Shown here in pieces: positions 3,362 to 14,151 of a stretch of DNA of 64,000 nt. The translations under genes and the position numbers were made by a program. The notes beneath the pieces are model-generated. The model was not told the origin of the DNA. It was given only the letters and a program-made list of their open reading frames with translations, and did no database searches. Every line of letters begins with the position of its first letter. Within the stretch, counting starts at the first letter, position 1. This DNA is from Candidatus Poribacteria bacterium (GTDB lineage Bacteria > Poribacteria > WGA-4E > WGA-3G): assembly GCA_958295945.1 (NCBI GenBank), contig OY282386.1:2617864-2681863 (forward strand). Direction: 5' to 3'.

Positions 3362-4549
3362 ATGATTTCACTATCACAACGGAGTCAAAACGTAACACCA
3401 TCGTCCACCTTAGCCATCACAGCGAAAATCAACGCGATGATTGCTGACGGCGTAGATGTCGTCAAATTCGGAGCAGGTGAACCCGATTTTGATACACCCG
3501 ACTATATCAAAGCTGCTGCAATAGAAGCACTGGATGCGGGTTTTACCAAATACACACCTGTCCCCGGCATTCCAGAACTACGGGAAGCAATCGTTGAGAA
3601 ATTTCAGAACGACAACGGATTGAGTTATACAACATCCCAAGTCATAGTTTCATGCGGTGCAAAGCACACACTCTATAATATCATGCAAGCGATATGCGAC
3701 CCAGAAGACGAGGTAATCTTTGCTGCACCGTATTGGGTGAGTTATCCACAGCAGATCAAATTGGCAGGTGCAGTACCAAACGTCATTGAAACAACTGCCG
3801 AACAGAACTTCTGTATGCAACCCGATCAGATCGAAGCGGCAATAACACCGAAAACAAAAGCAATTCTGCTCAACAGTCCGAGCAATCCTACCGGCACAAC
3901 CTACGATATTGAAACACTCAAGCAGATAGCCGCACTCGCTGTTGAAAATCAGGTCTACCTTATCTCTGATGAAATCTATGAAGCACTGCTATACGACGGA
4001 GCGACCCATCAGAGTCCCGCTTCATTTAACGAGGAAACGAAAGCAATTACCTTTGTTGTGAACGGTGTGTCAAAAGCCTACTCCATGACAGGATGGCGTA
4101 TCGGGTATACTGCAGGCCCCGAAGATGCGATTTCAGCGATGTCACGCATCCAATCTCATAGCACTTCAAATCCGACCTCAATCGCACAGAAAGGTGCAGT
4201 TGCCGCACTAAAAGAACCGCAGGCTGCCGTTGAGAAAATGCGAAAAGCATTTGAAGAACGCCGCGATGTCATCTGTCAACGTTTTGATGACATTGATGGT
4301 GTGAGTTATGTCAAACCACAAGGTGCATTCTACATCTTTCCCGACTTTTCTGCACACTACGGCAGAACACTTGAGGGCAAAAAGATTGAGGGTTCAATGG
4401 ACATAACTGATTATCTACTTGGCTCTGCTGGTGTCGGTGTTGTACCTGGTAATGGCTTTGGGGCAGATAGCAATTTACGTCTTTCCTTCGCTACCTCTTT
4501 GACAGAGATACATCGTGGGTTGGATCGTATTAAAAAGGCGTTGGCATAG
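3362..4549 (+). CDS. Class I aminotransferase, aspartate aminotransferase type
   Basis: A 395-residue PLP enzyme of fold type I, subgroup Ib, expected to act on aspartate or a close substrate such as prephenate. The substrate-binding FGAGEPDFDTP is at residues 36-46 and NSPSNPTGTTY at 171-181. SDEIYE follows near 202-207. The PLP lysine is Lys238 in GVSKAYSMTGWRIGY. AAGGAG lies about six bases upstream of the ATG, supporting the start. It follows the Rpn repeat region by 15 bases on the same strand and has no obvious functional link to it. The exact substrate cannot be read from sequence. Confidence 0.85.
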   Translation: MISLSQRSQNVTPSSTLAITAKINAMIADGVDVVKFGAGEPDFDTPDYIKAAAIEALDAGFTKYTPVPGIPELREAIVEKFQNDNGLSYTTSQVIVSCGAKHTLYNIMQAICDPEDEVIFAAPYWVSYPQQIKLAGAVPNVIETTAEQNFCMQPDQIEAAITPKTKAILLNSPSNPTGTTYDIETLKQIAALAVENQVYLISDEIYEALLYDGATHQSPASFNEETKAITFVVNGVSKAYSMTGWRIGYTAGPEDAISAMSRIQSHSTSNPTSIAQKGAVAALKEPQAAVEKMRKAFEERRDVICQRFDDIDGVSYVKPQGAFYIFPDFSAHYGRTLEGKKIEGSMDITDYLLGSAGVGVVPGNGFGADSNLRLSFATSLTEIHRGLDRIKKALA

Positions 4550-4607
4550 AAGCAATTCCATGAAAATGGTATGGTATTATAATGTGTTCTATAAATCAAG
4601 GTGAAAT

Positions 4608-5096
4608 ATGGTATTGAATGCGTGGAAAATGCTATACGTTATATTCTTCATTCTCTTAATCTTTTCCATCACTGTTCCGACTCTGGCACAGCAAGAACAA
4701 CAGTCGGATTCCGTGCTATCGCAATCCCAATTTATGCAGATTATTGATCGAATAGATAAATCTGAAGATAATATGCGCAACCATATTGACAAGAAATTTG
4801 GAGAACTTGACAAGAAAATTGATGACCTTGAGACAAAATTCCACGAACTTGATAAGAAGGTTGCGGTTTTAAGATCGGATGTTGATAAATTATTTACGAC
4901 TATAATTGCGATAGCGGTAGCAGTTGGAGCACATCTTTTAATCTTCATTGGTTCACACATTTACACATATTGGCGTAACAAGACTAATGTATTATCCAAC
5001 GTTGTCTCAAATAATCAATTAGAGCAAGATGTTATTTTAAGGCAAGCCTATTATAAAGATAAAACACAAATGGATCCTCATCGTCTAAAGGAATAA
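4608..5096 (+). CDS. Small coiled-coil membrane protein, function unknown
   Basis: A 162-residue protein. An N-terminal hydrophobic segment (residues 9-27, ending TLAQQ) looks like a signal peptide. It is followed by a Lys/Asp-rich heptad region (about 45-103, with DKKFGELDKKIDDLE) predicted to form a coiled coil, then a second hydrophobic segment (about 105-125) and a polar tail. This resembles the general layout of Bdr/DUF1640-like coiled-coil-TM proteins. A shorter protein of the same style is encoded at 39425-39715. A GGTGA precedes the ATG. The TPR gene starts four bases after its stop, so the two probably form an operon. Confidence 0.6.
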   Translation: MVLNAWKMLYVIFFILLIFSITVPTLAQQEQQSDSVLSQSQFMQIIDRIDKSEDNMRNHIDKKFGELDKKIDDLETKFHELDKKVAVLRSDVDKLFTTIIAIAVAVGAHLLIFIGSHIYTYWRNKTNVLSNVVSNNQLEQDVILRQAYYKDKTQMDPHRLKE

Positions 5097-6032: not shown

Positions 6033-7742
6033 GTGACACAACCTAATCTTGTTTTCGTTATTACCGACGACCAAGGCTACGGTGATTTAGGATGCACCGG
6101 CAACTCAGTCATTAACACCCCGAATTTAGACGCACTTGCTGGAGAGAGCGTTCAACTGCGCAACCTACATGTCGGACCTACCTGTTCACCGACCCGCGCA
6201 GGAATCATGACCGGTAGATACTGCAACTCAACAGGGGTATGGCATACCATCGGAGGCAGGTCACTCCTCCGCAGTGATGAAGTCACGATGGCAGATATCT
6301 TCAGACGCAACGGCTATAAAACCGGTATGTTCGGGAAATGGCATCTCGGGGATAACTATCCTTTCCGTCCCCACGACCGAGGATTTGAAGAGGCACTCTA
6401 TCACGGTGGTGGTGGAATCAGTCAAACGCCAGACTATTGGGGAAACGACTACTTTGACGACACTTATTTCAGCAACGGTTCTGAACAACCCTTTGAAGGT
6501 TACTGCACAGATGTCTGGTTTCAAGAGGGAATGAAGTTTATTGAACGCAATAAGGAACGTCCATTCTTCTGTTATATTCCGACCAATGCACCGCACGGTC
6601 CCTTTCGCGTTCCCGATGCATATAGTGAAGTTTACCGAAGGAAAGGTGAACCAGAATCACGTGCCTGTTTTTATGGAATGATTACCAACATAGACGACAA
6701 TATGGCGCGACTCCGACACCATCTCAAAGTTCTCGGACTTGAAGAAAATACGATCCTGATCTTTATGACAGATAACGGTTCCGCTAATGGTTGCGACTTG
6801 GATGGACAGCAGTATGTTAAGTCTGGATATAACGCTGGCATGCGTGGCAAAAAAGGGTCGCCTTATGAGGGTGGACATCGTGTGCCGCTCTTTATGCATT
6901 GGCCAAACGGTGGTTTCTCGCAAAAGAAAGAAGTAGATCAGCTTACAGCGAACATTGATCTACTACCAACACTTATTGACCTATGCGATTTAGAAGTGTC
7001 TGACAACTCCCGTTTTCATGGGAAAAGCATCACACCATTATTTCAGGATAAGTTGGAAGAATGGGAAGATCGCGTGGTAGTAACAGATTCGCAGCGGATT
7101 GAAAATCCAGTTAAGTGGAGGCAAAGTGCTACTATGTCCCAAAGATGGAGACTTATCAACGGCACAGAACTCTACGACATTCAAGCAGACCCAGAACAAA
7201 GAGAGGACATTGCTGCGCAGCACACCGATGTGGTTGCGGAACTTCGCGAACACTATGAAGCATGGTGGACATTGGTATCAGAAAGATTTGATGAGGATTG
7301 TCCAATTGTCGTTGGCACGCAAAATGAGCAACTTGCCTGTATTACGACACACGATTGGCACGGCAGTGCCAATGCTTGGAATCAAGGATCTATTCGAAAC
7401 GGAATGGAATGCAACGGATATTGGGCAATTGAGATCCCTGAAGATGGAGAGTATAGCTTTGAGTTGCGACGTTGGCCTCGTGAGGAAAATAAGGCAATCA
7501 CCGAAGGAATCCCCGGTGAGAAAATTGACCTCTACAACGGAGGACGTGCATTAGATTTGAAAACAGCACAAATCCGTATTGGTGATCAATCAGCAACTCA
7601 GCCTATTGCCCCTGATGCAATAGGTGTTACCTTTACATTTGACCTCAAAGCGGGACAGACCCGTATGCACACAGAGTTCTCTGATGAAACAGGTGAATTA
7701 TCGCTTGGTGCGTATTATGTGTATGTGAAACGGGTGATTTAA
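6033..7742 (+). CDS. Sulfatase (formylglycine-dependent)
   Basis: A 569-residue arylsulfatase-type hydrolase that should remove sulfate esters, probably from polysaccharides. Metal ligands are Asp12-Asp13 in VITDDQGYGDLG. The signature C-S-P-T-R at residues 51-55, followed by AGIMTGRY, carries the cysteine to be oxidised to formylglycine. TDNGS near residue 245 and GMRGKKGSPYEGGHRVP nearby complete the site. A C-terminal segment (about 430-569) may be a beta-rich accessory domain. The start is GTG at 6033, with GGAG 8 bases upstream. The protein begins directly at the catalytic core with no signal peptide. No sulfatase-modifying enzyme is in the window. Confidence 0.9.
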   Translation: MTQPNLVFVITDDQGYGDLGCTGNSVINTPNLDALAGESVQLRNLHVGPTCSPTRAGIMTGRYCNSTGVWHTIGGRSLLRSDEVTMADIFRRNGYKTGMFGKWHLGDNYPFRPHDRGFEEALYHGGGGISQTPDYWGNDYFDDTYFSNGSEQPFEGYCTDVWFQEGMKFIERNKERPFFCYIPTNAPHGPFRVPDAYSEVYRRKGEPESRACFYGMITNIDDNMARLRHHLKVLGLEENTILIFMTDNGSANGCDLDGQQYVKSGYNAGMRGKKGSPYEGGHRVPLFMHWPNGGFSQKKEVDQLTANIDLLPTLIDLCDLEVSDNSRFHGKSITPLFQDKLEEWEDRVVVTDSQRIENPVKWRQSATMSQRWRLINGTELYDIQADPEQREDIAAQHTDVVAELREHYEAWWTLVSERFDEDCPIVVGTQNEQLACITTHDWHGSANAWNQGSIRNGMECNGYWAIEIPEDGEYSFELRRWPREENKAITEGIPGEKIDLYNGGRALDLKTAQIRIGDQSATQPIAPDAIGVTFTFDLKAGQTRMHTEFSDETGELSLGAYYVYVKRVI

Positions 7743-9897: not shown

Positions 9898-9991
9898 TGG
9901 CGGGAGAGGGTGGGAATCGAACCCACCTATCCACTTGCATGGACAAGCCGGTTTTGAAGACCGGTAGAGCCACCAGACCCTATCCTCCCCC
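9898..9991 (-). tRNA. selC: tRNA-Sec (anticodon TCA)
   Basis: Reading the minus strand from 9991, the 94-base sequence folds as a selenocysteine tRNA. The acceptor stem has 8 pairs (GGGGGAGG with CCTCTCCC, one G-U). A 6-pair D stem (AGGGTC with GGCTCT) closes the four-base loop TGGT. The anticodon stem CCGGT/ACCGG holds the loop CTTCAAA, with TCA at 9957-9955. A long variable arm (TCCA/TGGA) and a T arm (GTGGG-TTCGATT-CCCAC) follow. Discriminator G and an encoded CCA end at 9898. The 8-bp acceptor and 6-bp D stem are hallmarks of bacterial tRNA-Sec. It sits directly after selB. Confidence 0.95.
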
Positions 9992-10025: not shown

Positions 10026-11960
10026 TTATTTCTGTCTGGATGATAATCTGCGGACGTTTCCATCTCTGACGGTAACACTTTGCGTGTCACAATACTCAAG
10101 AAAAGGAACTGCATATTTCCGCGATGTCTTTGCCAATTCCCGAAATTCTGCGACTGATATTGTTTCATTTTTTTGTAAATAATCGGTTAATGACTCTGTT
10201 ATATCCTCATAGACTTTTTTATGAATGAAGTAATTGTCCGCCGCCTTAATAAACTGACCCAAATTCAATAATGCATAAAATGTGGACTCAATCACTTGGG
10301 GTGTATATTCTGACAGTAGCGTATTCAGTTCTTTTAGACTGGGTGTATTGATGCCAGCATTGAGAAATAAATTCTCCAACGTTTCTTTTGCGGTTGACTC
10401 TTCTTCAGAGAATTGTATTTCATGGGATGCTAATCGTAGCAAATTTCCATCTTTGACTAACTCTTTGGTTTTAATGAGTTGGTCAGTGATTTTTTCAAAT
10501 GCCACCTCATCCAGTCCAAGTTCCCGACTCAATTGTGAACTGTTTTGACCTGCCTGCAAAGGTTGTGATTCATGAAATTCGGACAGTGCTGCTAACAACC
10601 TTTTTGTAACGTCTGTGGTGCGGACAGCATCGGAAACAAGTGGCGTTCTTGCAGATTTATCCCAGCGAACAATTTTCCCTTCAGATTCCAAGGTGTTTAG
10701 TATGTCTTTTACTTCAGATTGTGAGTAGGGTAAATAGTAATATAGGAAGGATTCTTCTACGCATAGTGTCGGACTATTTTCTAATAGTGCATTGACGACC
10801 TGTGTGTCGTCAGCTTCTTCCCATTGTGCTAATGTGTTGATGGTTTCTTGCGTGAACCTCTTGTGTTTCGGTGCGAATGGGTTGATGACTTCTCCACCAC
10901 CTACAGTATACTGTGCAGAAAAATCGCGTAATATAATTCTATCTCCTCTGAAGGTTAGTATGGGTTGTTCTAAGCGAAGTTGGACTTGTACTTTGTCACC
11001 CGGTAGAATTGCTTCATCAACCAACAGGATCAATCTACAAAAAAGCTCGCGTGTGCCAAGATAGGCACGAAAACGTCCCCAATGTTCAAGCATTCTTGGA
11101 AACGAGGTTAAAACCTGTAAAGAGATGTCAATATTATCTGTTACCCTTGAAAATTCACTTGGACATATCACATCCCCGCGTTGTATTTCGTCTGCAGTTG
11201 TGCCAGACAGATTTAGAGCAGTTCTTTGTCCGGCATGTGCCACGTTCGCGGGTTCATTATGCACTTGTATTCCTCGAACACGGACGGTGTCTCCTTGTGG
11301 TAGTATTACCATCCGCTGATCTTTATTGATTGAACCGCCGATAAGTGTTCCCGTAACTACGTCACCAAATCCTTCCACTTTAAAAACACGATCAACATAC
11401 AATCTTGGAATTCCATCATGTTCTTGTGCTTTATTCGCAAGGTCTACCTGTTGAACAATCGTCTGTTTTAAATCGTCAATTCCGTCACCAGTGATGGAGG
11501 ATACACTCACTGGTGGGATACCTTCCAGTGAAGTACCAACGAGCATCTCCTGTGTCATCTCCGTTGCTTCTTCCAATTCATCAGGCGATGCTAAATCAGA
11601 CTTTGTCATGACAAGAATGCCATTTGAGATGTTGAGCAGGTCTAATATAGCTAAGTGTTCAAGTGTCTGTTCTTGCACCCCCTCTTTTGCATCAACGACA
11701 AAAAGGACAACGTCCATTCCATAAGCACCCGACAACATATTGCGTATAAACTTCTCGTGACCGGGAACATCAACAATCCCAGCGCGTGAATTATCTGGTA
11801 GGTCAAAGTATGCAAAACCTAACTCAATGGATAAACCGCGTTCTCGTTCCTCCTTTAGTCTGTCAGTTTGAATGCCTGTGAGAGCACCTACCAGAGCAGT
11901 TTTCCCATGGTCAACATGTCCAGCAGTACCGATGATAAGGTGTCGTCTGTCTTGCTGCAT
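10026..11960 (-). CDS. selB: Selenocysteine-specific elongation factor SelB
   Basis: A 644-residue GTPase that delivers Sec-tRNA to UGA codons marked by a SECIS hairpin. The G domain has G1 GHVDHGKT, G3 DVPGHEKF and G4 TKSD. EF-Tu-like beta barrels cover about 175-360. The C-terminal half (about 380-640) is a run of winged-helix modules, the SelB part that binds SECIS RNA and is absent from EF-Tu. It starts in a one-base TGATG overlap with the lepB stop, so it is translationally coupled to lepB. tRNA-Sec lies 34 bases downstream. selA and selD are not in this window. Confidence 0.95.
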   Translation of the reverse strand: MQQDRRHLIIGTAGHVDHGKTALVGALTGIQTDRLKEERERGLSIELGFAYFDLPDNSRAGIVDVPGHEKFIRNMLSGAYGMDVVLFVVDAKEGVQEQTLEHLAILDLLNISNGILVMTKSDLASPDELEEATEMTQEMLVGTSLEGIPPVSVSSITGDGIDDLKQTIVQQVDLANKAQEHDGIPRLYVDRVFKVEGFGDVVTGTLIGGSINKDQRMVILPQGDTVRVRGIQVHNEPANVAHAGQRTALNLSGTTADEIQRGDVICPSEFSRVTDNIDISLQVLTSFPRMLEHWGRFRAYLGTRELFCRLILLVDEAILPGDKVQVQLRLEQPILTFRGDRIILRDFSAQYTVGGGEVINPFAPKHKRFTQETINTLAQWEEADDTQVVNALLENSPTLCVEESFLYYYLPYSQSEVKDILNTLESEGKIVRWDKSARTPLVSDAVRTTDVTKRLLAALSEFHESQPLQAGQNSSQLSRELGLDEVAFEKITDQLIKTKELVKDGNLLRLASHEIQFSEEESTAKETLENLFLNAGINTPSLKELNTLLSEYTPQVIESTFYALLNLGQFIKAADNYFIHKKVYEDITESLTDYLQKNETISVAEFRELAKTSRKYAVPFLEYCDTQSVTVRDGNVRRLSSRQK

Positions 11961-12751
11961 CAGTTGAGTCCATCATCTGTGTGGATGAGTTTACCAATAC
12001 GGTTGAATCTTATATTTTCTATAATCTTCCACACTTCCCATATTTTGGGTTTTGCTTGTCCATTTGCTTGTCCAAATGACCAATATACCATGAACGCTTG
12101 TCCTTTGATACGATCAACATGCACTGGTCCCCAAGCGCGACTGTCACTGCTTTGATCTCGATTATCACCCATTGCAAAGACATGATCTTTTGGAACAAGA
12201 AACGGCTTGCCATTGGGAAATTTGCTTTTAAACTGACTATCTGTCAATGTGTAATCCGCGTATAATTTTTCATCTCTCATATAATCTTCCGTTTTTCGGA
12301 ATGGTGGAAAATCACCTTGCCTAACGAAACGTCCGTCTACGTATTTGGTGTAACTACTATCGTCAACCTGTATACCGTTGACATAGAGATTTCTACCCTC
12401 TGTGTGAACTGTATCACCTTCTACTGCCACAATGCGTTTGATGAAGTTGCGATCTGTTTCATGCGGAGGAATAAATACAAAAACATCACCCCGTGCAGGT
12501 TCATGAAAGTCAAAGACTCTAATGTCCGTTCCAGGAATTTTGAAACCGTAGATAAACTTGCAAACCAGAATTCTGTCGCCGATGAGGAGTGTATCTTCCA
12601 TTGAGCCGGAAGGTATTTTGAATGCTTCTACAACAAAAGGTCGTATGAACCCAAAAACAAGTATGAGTGCAACTGCGATTACTTGGGTATATTCCCAGAC
12701 GACTGTTTTGCGGAATTTTTGCCATTTGGACAATTGAGCATCAGTACTCAT
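11960..12751 (-). CDS. lepB: Signal peptidase I
   Basis: A 263-residue inner-membrane protease that removes signal peptides from exported proteins. A single transmembrane anchor spans about residues 22-41. The catalytic serine is Ser50 in IPSGSM and the general-base lysine is Lys105 in NFIKRIVAVEGD. The downstream box MGDNRDQSSDSRAWG is complete. Length is normal for family S26A. The stop overlaps the selB start by one base. The selenoprotein gene lies 125 bases upstream on the same strand, separated by a hairpin repeat. Confidence 0.93.
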   Translation of the reverse strand: MSTDAQLSKWQKFRKTVVWEYTQVIAVALILVFGFIRPFVVEAFKIPSGSMEDTLLIGDRILVCKFIYGFKIPGTDIRVFDFHEPARGDVFVFIPPHETDRNFIKRIVAVEGDTVHTEGRNLYVNGIQVDDSSYTKYVDGRFVRQGDFPPFRKTEDYMRDEKLYADYTLTDSQFKSKFPNGKPFLVPKDHVFAMGDNRDQSSDSRAWGPVHVDRIKGQAFMVYWSFGQANGQAKPKIWEVWKIIENIRFNRIGKLIHTDDGLN

Positions 12752-12820: not shown

Positions 12821-12849
12821 AGGTTGGGTTTCGTTCCTCAACCCAACCT
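12821..12849. repeat. Perfect 10-bp hairpin repeat between lepB and the selenoprotein gene
   Basis: AGGTTGGGTT at 12821-12830 pairs perfectly with AACCCAACCT at 12840-12849 around a nine-base loop. It lies downstream of the selenoprotein stop on the minus strand and upstream of lepB. It lacks a long T run, so it looks more like a dispersed repeat unit than a classical terminator, but it could weaken read-through into lepB. Confidence 0.55.
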
Positions 12850-12876
12850 ACAATCACCTATAGAAGCAAGAAAGAA

Positions 12877-14151
12877 TCAGTCAAGACCTTCCAATGCACT
12901 TATAATACTGGAAGAAGAAGTCCTTGAAGACAGCGAACCAAGAGCTTTCCATCCGATCGTTCCATCTGTCTTAATGATAAAGACTGAAGGACGGGCAATA
13001 TGGTCACTACCTGAAGCTAATACGTTGTAGGCAGAGATTGCCGTTTTGCCGGTATCTGATAGCACAGTGAACGTGAGACTCTGATCATCAACCATTCCCT
13101 TAGCACCGCTAGTGTCATCGGAACTGATCGCGATGAGCGATCCGCCTGCATCTATAATATCATCGTAGTTGTCTTGCAACTCACCGAGTTGCCCTTGACA
13201 AACCGGTCACCACCAACCCCGGTAAAACAAAATTACTATATTACTGCTACCACCGATGTTACCGTCAAAACTGTAGGTGTTTCCATCACTGTCATCCACA
13301 GAGAATGTTGGTGCCGTGACACCGAGTCTTAAGCCTTCACCACGAGCCAGCGGTTGAAGCTGCACAGGTGCTGATTTTGTTGTGAAGGTAATGCTAACTA
13401 CCTTTTCATTATCAGCACTGTCTTTGACAGTCCCCTTTATTTGGTATGTAGTATCGTGACTGAGTTCTTGACCAGAACCTTTTGTGATCGTGATGGTCTT
13501 CCCTGAAATCGTTGCTGTCCAACCGACATCTATATCGTTTTTATACAATTTCAGTTCTCCACTACCGATTGTTTCATTGAAGGTAACCGTGATGCCATTT
13601 GCAGACACTGTTGTCGGGTCAACATCCACTGCACCGTTAGCAGTGCTACTGGTTGAAACTTCTGGCGCGGTTGAATCTTCAACGTTATAGTTCAGTGTTT
13701 TGCTTCCGTCGCCGTTTGTCCACTCAATTTTCAGAGTAAGTGAGCCTTCCGTGAAAGGACCGCTAATAGTCCGTGACGTGCCTGAACCTGCGACTATCTC
13801 TCCATTCACAGTTACTTCACCGGGGTCGTTGTCAAATGTGATTTCAATACTATCATTTACCTTAATATTCCCGTCTGCGGGATCCGCACTCACAAATGCA
13901 GCATCGGGTGTTTGAGGTTCCTCGGATGTCTCCTCTTCCGTAGTTTCAGTCTCAGGAGTCTCCTCTTCCTTTGAATCATCGGTTGTCATAGAAGGATCCT
14001 TCATCGTACCTACGGATGTAACTACTTCATCCTCTGTCGGACCTCCATCTTCAGACACCGTCATAGGTTTCATAACCTGACTTTGCATTTCATCACATCC
14101 CACAGCAAATACAATTAAGAATGTGATTGATATTATATACAATATTTTCAT
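12877..14151 (-). CDS. Lipoprotein selenoprotein: Ig-like domains plus AhpC/TSA redoxin with UxxC motif
   Basis: A 424-residue protein if the in-frame TGA at 13209-13207 is read as selenocysteine. The first 314 codons end FYRGWW; after the TGA the same frame continues PVCQGQLGELQDNYDD to a true stop at 12877. Together these give the redoxin active-site motif with Sec at residue 315 and Cys at 318 (U-P-V-C), where relatives have CxxC. A lipoprotein signal ends at Cys19 (lipobox AVGC). An acidic Glu/Asp/Thr linker (about 30-90) follows, then Ig-like segments (about 88-280) and the redoxin domain (about 285-424). A SECIS-like hairpin follows the UGA, and selB and tRNA-Sec lie downstream on the same strand. 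It probably reduces peroxides or thiols outside the inner membrane. Confidence 0.88.
13169..13201 (-). promoter_or_regulatory. SECIS-like hairpin for selenocysteine insertion
   Basis: On the minus strand the mRNA after the UGA folds into an outer stem TTGTC/GACAA, an internal loop (AAGG against AA), and a perfect 7-bp inner stem GCAACTC/GAGTTGC closed by the loop GGT. The GGU apex lies 22-24 bases after the UGA. This fits known bacterial SECIS elements, which place a small loop with a G-U about 16-37 bases after the codon. It overlaps the coding sequence, as bacterial SECIS elements do. Confidence 0.78.

Follow-up and report, generated by a model that had tools for sequence, protein, structure and literature searches.

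A putative selenocysteine-containing redoxin lipoprotein encoded across an in-frame UGA in Candidatus Poribacteria

We propose, with a probability of about 95%, that a Candidatus Poribacteria gene interrupted by an in-frame UGA encodes one selenoprotein, a lipid-anchored extracytoplasmic redoxin of the peroxiredoxin fold with a U-P-V-C site, produced by the mechanism described below. The gene lies in a stretch of 64,000 nucleotides (hereafter, the window). Computationally, we observed a joined reading frame, a domain that spans the UGA, conservation of the selenocysteine (Sec) column, a hairpin 3' of the UGA, and Sec machinery in the genome.

Reading frame, domains and predicted fold

On the minus strand, the frame from 14151 to 12877 reads FYRGWW, then TGA (13209-13207), then PVCQGQLGELQDNYDD in the translation of the window, and runs for 109 codons beyond the in-frame TGA to its terminator. 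A standard gene caller divides it into a 314-aa piece (13207-14151) and a 100-aa piece with a TTG start (12877-13179). The gene-caller output and the translation agree with the original prediction, which held that a naive caller sees two frames where a single frame continues; a frameshift was rejected, as both halves are in one frame. The "real stop" of that prediction does end the frame, but it is itself a TGA (12879-12877), though one with no conserved hairpin 3' of it. A ribosome-binding-like AAAGGGA stands immediately 5' of the ATG. The features of the gene are as follows.

12877..14151, minus strand: whole predicted selenoprotein gene, from its ATG to the closing TGA; 424 residues, Sec being residue 315
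14095..14151, minus strand: predicted signal peptide with lipobox FAVGC, Cys19 being the lipid anchor site (read from the sequence; similar start in the orthologs L016 and L017 and in many paralogs)
13903..14055, minus strand: acidic Glu/Thr/Ser-rich linker, about residues 33-83 (read from the sequence)
13678..13905, minus strand: probable first beta-sandwich domain, residues 83-158 (no Pfam match of its own)
13378..13677, minus strand: Big_5 Ig-like domain (PF13205), residues 159-258 (Pfam E 1.8e-12)
12949..13323, minus strand: AhpC-TSA/redoxin domain across the UGA (Pfam, pLDDT, Foldseek)
13207..13209, minus strand: in-frame UGA, proposed Sec315, first residue of U-P-V-C (same-column TGA in 99 homologs)
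13198..13200, minus strand: Cys318 of U-P-V-C, putative resolving partner (Cys in 98/99 homologs)

Both halves match one AhpC/TSA-type domain, as had been predicted: the Pfam AhpC-TSA match (PF00578; E 2.1e-24, 86.2 bits against a cut-off of 26) covers residues 277-401 and so spans the UGA at 315, and the AhpC-TSA and Redoxin matches together reach residues 277-408. No NCBIfam redoxin model scored above its own cut-off for the protein, the best being ResA, below cut-off. The N-terminus has a hydrophobic segment and carries FAVGC with its Cys at residue 19, from which lipidation is predicted. The lipobox and the acidic linker bear out the earlier description of a lipoprotein with such a linker. 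That description had Ig-like domains in the plural; Pfam recognizes one, and residues 83-158 resemble a second. A further protein encoded in the same genome matches residues 76-261 at 51%. Among the 99 homologs with a TGA at the same position, 45 pass a strict lipobox pattern, and many of those that fail it combine a hydrophobic segment with a Cys in a looser box (LNC, GFGC); we give no total for lipoproteins since the strict pattern misses such looser boxes. The mature chain has only three thiol or selenol residues, the lipidated Cys19, Sec315 and Cys318, so that Sec315-Cys318 would be the only internal redox pair.

The AlphaFold2 model of the redoxin domain, built from a 46-sequence alignment (pLDDT 95.4, pTM 0.91), places Sec at the N-terminus of the first long helix, immediately preceding it; the full-length protein, modelled with no alignment, gave a poor structure (pLDDT 43.9) that was discarded. 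Foldseek found the closest folds in the Bcp and AhpE peroxiredoxins (TM 0.88-0.90), and in alignment to these Sec315 falls at the Thr/Ser of TxxC and Cys318 at the peroxidatic Cys. The nearest folds and the position of Cys318 could indicate that the protein is chiefly a peroxidase (a peroxiredoxin) and not a thiol:disulfide oxidoreductase, while the replacement by Sec of the Thr three residues before the peroxidatic Cys, which yields a thioredoxin-like UxxC, argues against this. We regard a mainly peroxidatic role as a real possibility from which we lean away; it concerns function only, and the protein would still be a Sec redoxin.

Conservation of the UGA and the Sec machinery

The UGA lies inside a conserved domain and in a Sec/Cys column, as is expected of a bacterial selenoprotein. 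In a redoxin-domain search of 98 related genomes, all of the matches listed except the weakest, last one carry exactly one TGA. A profile alignment of 115 distinct redoxin-like sequences has TGA at the UGA column in 99, Cys in 8, Thr in 6, and Ser and Gly in 1 each. Sequences with Thr, Ser or Gly there are classical peroxiredoxins, of which some have Sec or Cys three residues on, at the peroxidatic position; the Cys cases are mostly TlpA-like CxxC proteins, with one clear family member (L118, CPVC). The alignment called for by the original prediction thus returned Sec codons in 99 of 115 sequences, the remainder being a Cys homolog, thioredoxin-type CxxC proteins and classical TxxC/TxxU peroxiredoxins. 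That prediction had placed U-P-V-C where relatives have CxxC; in fact close relatives mostly have Sec in that column, not Cys. Three residues on from the TGA, 98 of the 99 homologs have Cys and 1 has Ser. Sec forms were also found outside Poribacteria, in Chloracidobacterium UBA7656 and in Deltaproteobacteria/Desulfobacterales MAGs.

In the tree, L016 and L017, the two nearest relatives of the window gene, form a fully supported group with it. The dN/dS of the window gene is about 0.38 before the UGA and 0.47 after it relative to L016, and about 0.27 and 0.39, respectively, relative to L017. Judged by these ratios, purifying selection acts on the downstream half as it does on the upstream half. 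A nonsense mutation, with the gene a pseudogene, would account for the frame being split by a standard gene caller, and lineage-wide loss of the downstream half had been named beforehand as an outcome favoring it; that half is instead conserved and under purifying selection. Across many genomes, 99 distinct homologs share a TGA at this column with both halves conserved, selection is similar on either side of it, and synonymous sites 3' of it are constrained (see below). We rejected the pseudogene reading, to which we assign a near-negligible probability, on the column-wide conservation of the TGA with an intact downstream half.

The genome in which the gene lies is one contig of 5.34 Mb. Its named relatives are MAGs of Candidatus Poribacteria; of those found, jk18xAbins.19 is the nearest, at 67% across the redoxin domain. 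Poribacteria are sponge symbionts. As had been noted before, the gene is on the same strand as selB and tRNA-Sec; lepB, selB and tRNA-Sec all lie downstream of it.

11960..12751, minus strand: lepB, signal peptidase I (PF10502; TIGR02227 over cut-off)
10026..11960, minus strand: selB, selenocysteine-specific elongation factor (TIGR00475, 362.5 bits against a cut-off of 242)
9898..9991, minus strand: tRNA-Sec (selC), anticodon TCA (ARAGORN; RF01852, 78.1 bits)

The genome also encodes SelA (E 3.6e-161) and SelD (over cut-off) and so holds SelA, SelB, SelD and tRNA-Sec together; SelD has one in-frame TGA of its own, at a UASK site, and SelA was found in 85 of the 96 genomes searched. The order redoxin-lepB-selB-tRNA-Sec-lipA is retained in the relatives L070/L142, but the neighbors lepB-selB-tRNA-Sec-lipA were not seen around the third ortholog (L141). 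In L070, the nearest relative, two lepB-like copies (4233-4865 and 6762-7538) flank the orthologous redoxin, where the window has one. A palindrome, GTAGGTTGGGTTGAGGAACGAAACCCAACCT, lies between redoxin and lepB at window positions 12821-12851, and two more degenerate copies occur in the genome.

Lineages that use genetic code 4 exist, and the residues preceding the TGA are often Trp or Gly, which would suit a TGA that codes for tryptophan or undergoes selenium-independent read-through. However, the gene itself terminates in TGA and uses TGG for all 5 of its Trp codons; among the main window open reading frames ending in TGA that were checked, only this gene reads on for at least 25 codons; and the TGA stands at a redox column that is occupied in remoter homologs by Cys or by the Thr of peroxiredoxins. 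With selA, selB, selD and tRNA-Sec all in the genome, we rejected reassignment on the terminal TGA, the TGG codons and the Sec machinery, and consider either form of this reading extremely improbable.

The hairpin downstream of the UGA

13176..13192, minus strand: bSECIS candidate GCAACTC-GGT-GAGTTGC, 7-bp stem and 3-nt loop starting with G, 14 nt past the UGA

Bacterial SECIS elements have a conserved G in a small apical loop (PMC1088965), and just 3' of the UGA a 7-bp stem closes a GGU loop. The distance between hairpin and TGA is fixed at 14 nt in the family, and the six inner stem pairs are preserved in 97-99 of the 99 genes. In the hairpin region Leu is encoded by CTC in 96/99 genes (21% elsewhere in the same genes), Glu by GAG in 96/99 (30% elsewhere) and a second Leu by TTG in 88/99 (19% elsewhere); because these synonymous sites are nearly invariant, conservation of the amino acids QLxELQ does not explain that of the hairpin. 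The pair formed by Gln position 3 and Leu position 1 covaries, being A-U in 82 genes, G-C in 8 and G-U in 7; the single A.C is in L095, which has another hairpin. L112 has changed C-G to T-A on both sides of the stem. A tree test of covariation counted 1-2 agreeing and 0 disagreeing events per draw, too few for significance. In the Cys homolog L118, which reads CAGTTG GAG GAGTTG, the CARCTC/GAGYTG stem is not preserved.

The pattern TGA-N15-CARCTCNNNGAGYTG occurs at 160 sites in 96 genomes (table sum), all of them encoding U-x-x-C, against 5 for a reversed-pattern control; when a Cys codon at +3 is also demanded, the count is still 160 and the control drops to 0. A looser hairpin search of the window gene's own genome, allowing 3 mismatches, gave 56 matches against 41 for its reversed-pattern control, so only the 4 exact matches count. 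The hairpin of the window gene folds only moderately better than shuffled sequences (z -1.6), and with the folding energy of the single gene this weak, the case for the hairpin rests on comparison. Rfam SECIS families gave no covariance-model match at E <= 1 in the 161 bases searched. We therefore describe the hairpin, on comparative grounds, as a bSECIS candidate.

We propose that tRNA-Sec, delivered by SelB, would decode UGA 315 as selenocysteine, with SelB held by the GCAACTC-GGU-GAGUUGC hairpin starting 14 nt past the UGA. Sec insertion generally competes with termination, and the domains 5' of the redoxin make a complete lipoprotein, so the gene might yield two products, a truncated Ig-like lipoprotein and the full-length Sec redoxin, with selenium supply setting their ratio and both forms being of importance. 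Against such dual decoding, no sequence feature marking a functional truncated form was found, and the upstream half includes about 38 redoxin-domain residues that would be unable to fold alone; we consider it unlikely. Returning to the single full-length selenoprotein, we infer its incorporation of Sec in the cell, its export, its substrate and its electron donor as follows. The protein would be exported and lipidated at Cys19, and the acidic linker and beta-sandwich domains would hold the redoxin domain off the membrane. Outside the cytoplasm, Sec315 would make the nucleophilic attack on a disulfide or peroxide, and Cys318 would resolve the selenenyl intermediate with formation of a Se-S bond. 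The oxidized enzyme would probably be re-reduced by electrons crossing the membrane, for example via the only DsbD-type protein of the genome. In sum, the protein may be an extracytoplasmic disulfide/peroxide reductase, recycled perhaps by that DsbD-type protein.

Paralogs, operons and comparison with known selenoproteins

In a partial census of the selenoproteome, the genome has 22 AhpC-TSA domains, 8 of which (in 7 genes) contain an in-frame TGA. The genome thus holds paralogs whose TGA falls at the column of Sec315. Besides the window gene, the TGA-containing genes include a tandem pair of UxxC lipoproteins (L009) and a UPEC Sec-redoxin gene (L010). A Prx-like gene (L011; G000:C1:3184333-3185034, plus strand) has a UPNS (UxxS) site, a weak hairpin and no evident signal peptide. 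Another gene (L012; G000:C1:4143279-4144400, minus strand) encodes two peroxiredoxin domains, each with a TGA at the peroxidatic position (FTGGU, FGRGU) and a possible stem-loop 3' of it, and is by its sequence a candidate double-Sec peroxiredoxin. A TlpA-like gene with a WUAC (UxC) site and a C-terminal extension (L162; G000:C1:3990245-3990583, minus strand) is, by analogy with the known UGC-TlpA kind, a further candidate selenoprotein. An in-frame short repeat encoding QLANRKLAIQ, single or tandem, occurs in the signal-peptide region of redoxin lipoproteins (L018:740-812 and several genus-g2 relatives: L036-L038, L041, L073, L081).

In 23 of 25 named Poribacteria loci, searched with queries from L075, a DUF362 gene lies 3' of the Sec redoxin on the same strand, its start typically about 12 nt past the end of the redoxin match, and in most of these 23 loci LamG-domain genes precede the redoxin. 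Most of the Poribacteria loci collected (L071-L093, L009) share this operon, with LamG first, then the Sec redoxin in one to three copies, then DUF362. Pfam searches of L009 and L075 confirmed the operon domains, with CarboxypepD_reg domains replacing Big_5, and the DUF362 protein has a Tat-like signal, RRQFL. The window gene lies outside any such operon and has no DUF362 neighbor, which makes function carried over from its operon relatives uncertain. We tentatively suggest, as a conjecture that may well prove wrong, that Poribacteria have a dedicated selenium-dependent extracytoplasmic redox system of duplicated Sec lipoprotein redoxins, many with LamG and a Tat-exported DUF362 partner or substrate, in which one standard SECIS hairpin constrains the protein (QLxELQ). 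Through the operon, DUF362, a domain of unknown function, gains a partner that can be tested.

The bacteria richest in selenoproteins are mainly anaerobes (review, PMC13188914). With these genes a sponge-associated phylum joins those with several selenoprotein genes, and it would be a lineage in which Sec redoxins became an expanded family of secreted lipoproteins. Our literature search found no paper on Poribacteria selenoproteins; selenocysteine and Poribacteria co-occur only in papers with single mentions of selenocysteine. Since no such literature was found and no NCBIfam redoxin model exceeds its cut-off, standard annotation likely truncates the Sec-redoxin genes of Poribacteria; more of them can be sought directly with the near-invariant signature TGA-N15-CARCTCNNNGAGYTG.

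The window protein shares the AhpC-TSA fold and Sec with the classical Sec-peroxiredoxins (TxxU), in which, however, Sec occupies the peroxidatic Cys position; here Sec315 is at the Thr position and Cys318 at the peroxidatic one, and it is the two-domain L012, with its two UGAs, that resembles the classical kind. The cd02970 selenoprotein (PMC13188914 table) has a Prx-like fold and Sec at the same site, but with UxxS instead of UxxC; the separate gene L011 resembles it. ResA/TlpA thiol:disulfide oxidoreductases are likewise membrane-anchored, extracytoplasmic redoxins, but theirs is CxxC, they are without an Ig-like domain, and the structure search favors Bcp/AhpE.

The closest known system is the Prx-like UxxC class (PF00578; PMC1088965, PMC13188914), predicted since 2005 from the Sargasso Sea and named Prx-like with a thioredoxin-like motif because Sec replaces the peroxiredoxin Thr, giving UxxC (PMC1088965); its thiol:disulfide activity has the status of a prediction even in members already known (PMC13188914 table). 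Common to that class and the window protein are the AhpC-TSA domain, UxxC replacing TxxU/TxxC (here UPVC, with UxxC in 98/99 homologs) and a SECIS, here a candidate, right after the UGA. Judged from sequence, the window protein belongs to this class and represents an unusual variant of it, a family of secreted lipoproteins that has expanded. It differs in its fusion to a lipoprotein signal, an acidic linker and beta-sandwich domains, in having several paralogs per genome with a nearly invariant hairpin, and in matching no NCBIfam model over cut-off. Its setting had been called uncommon for a Sec redoxin; within the Poribacteria family it is the normal form. As far as the searched literature shows, the presence and expansion of the class in Poribacteria are new, as are its setting in a lipoprotein with beta-sandwich domains, the uniformity of the hairpin and the operon with DUF362.
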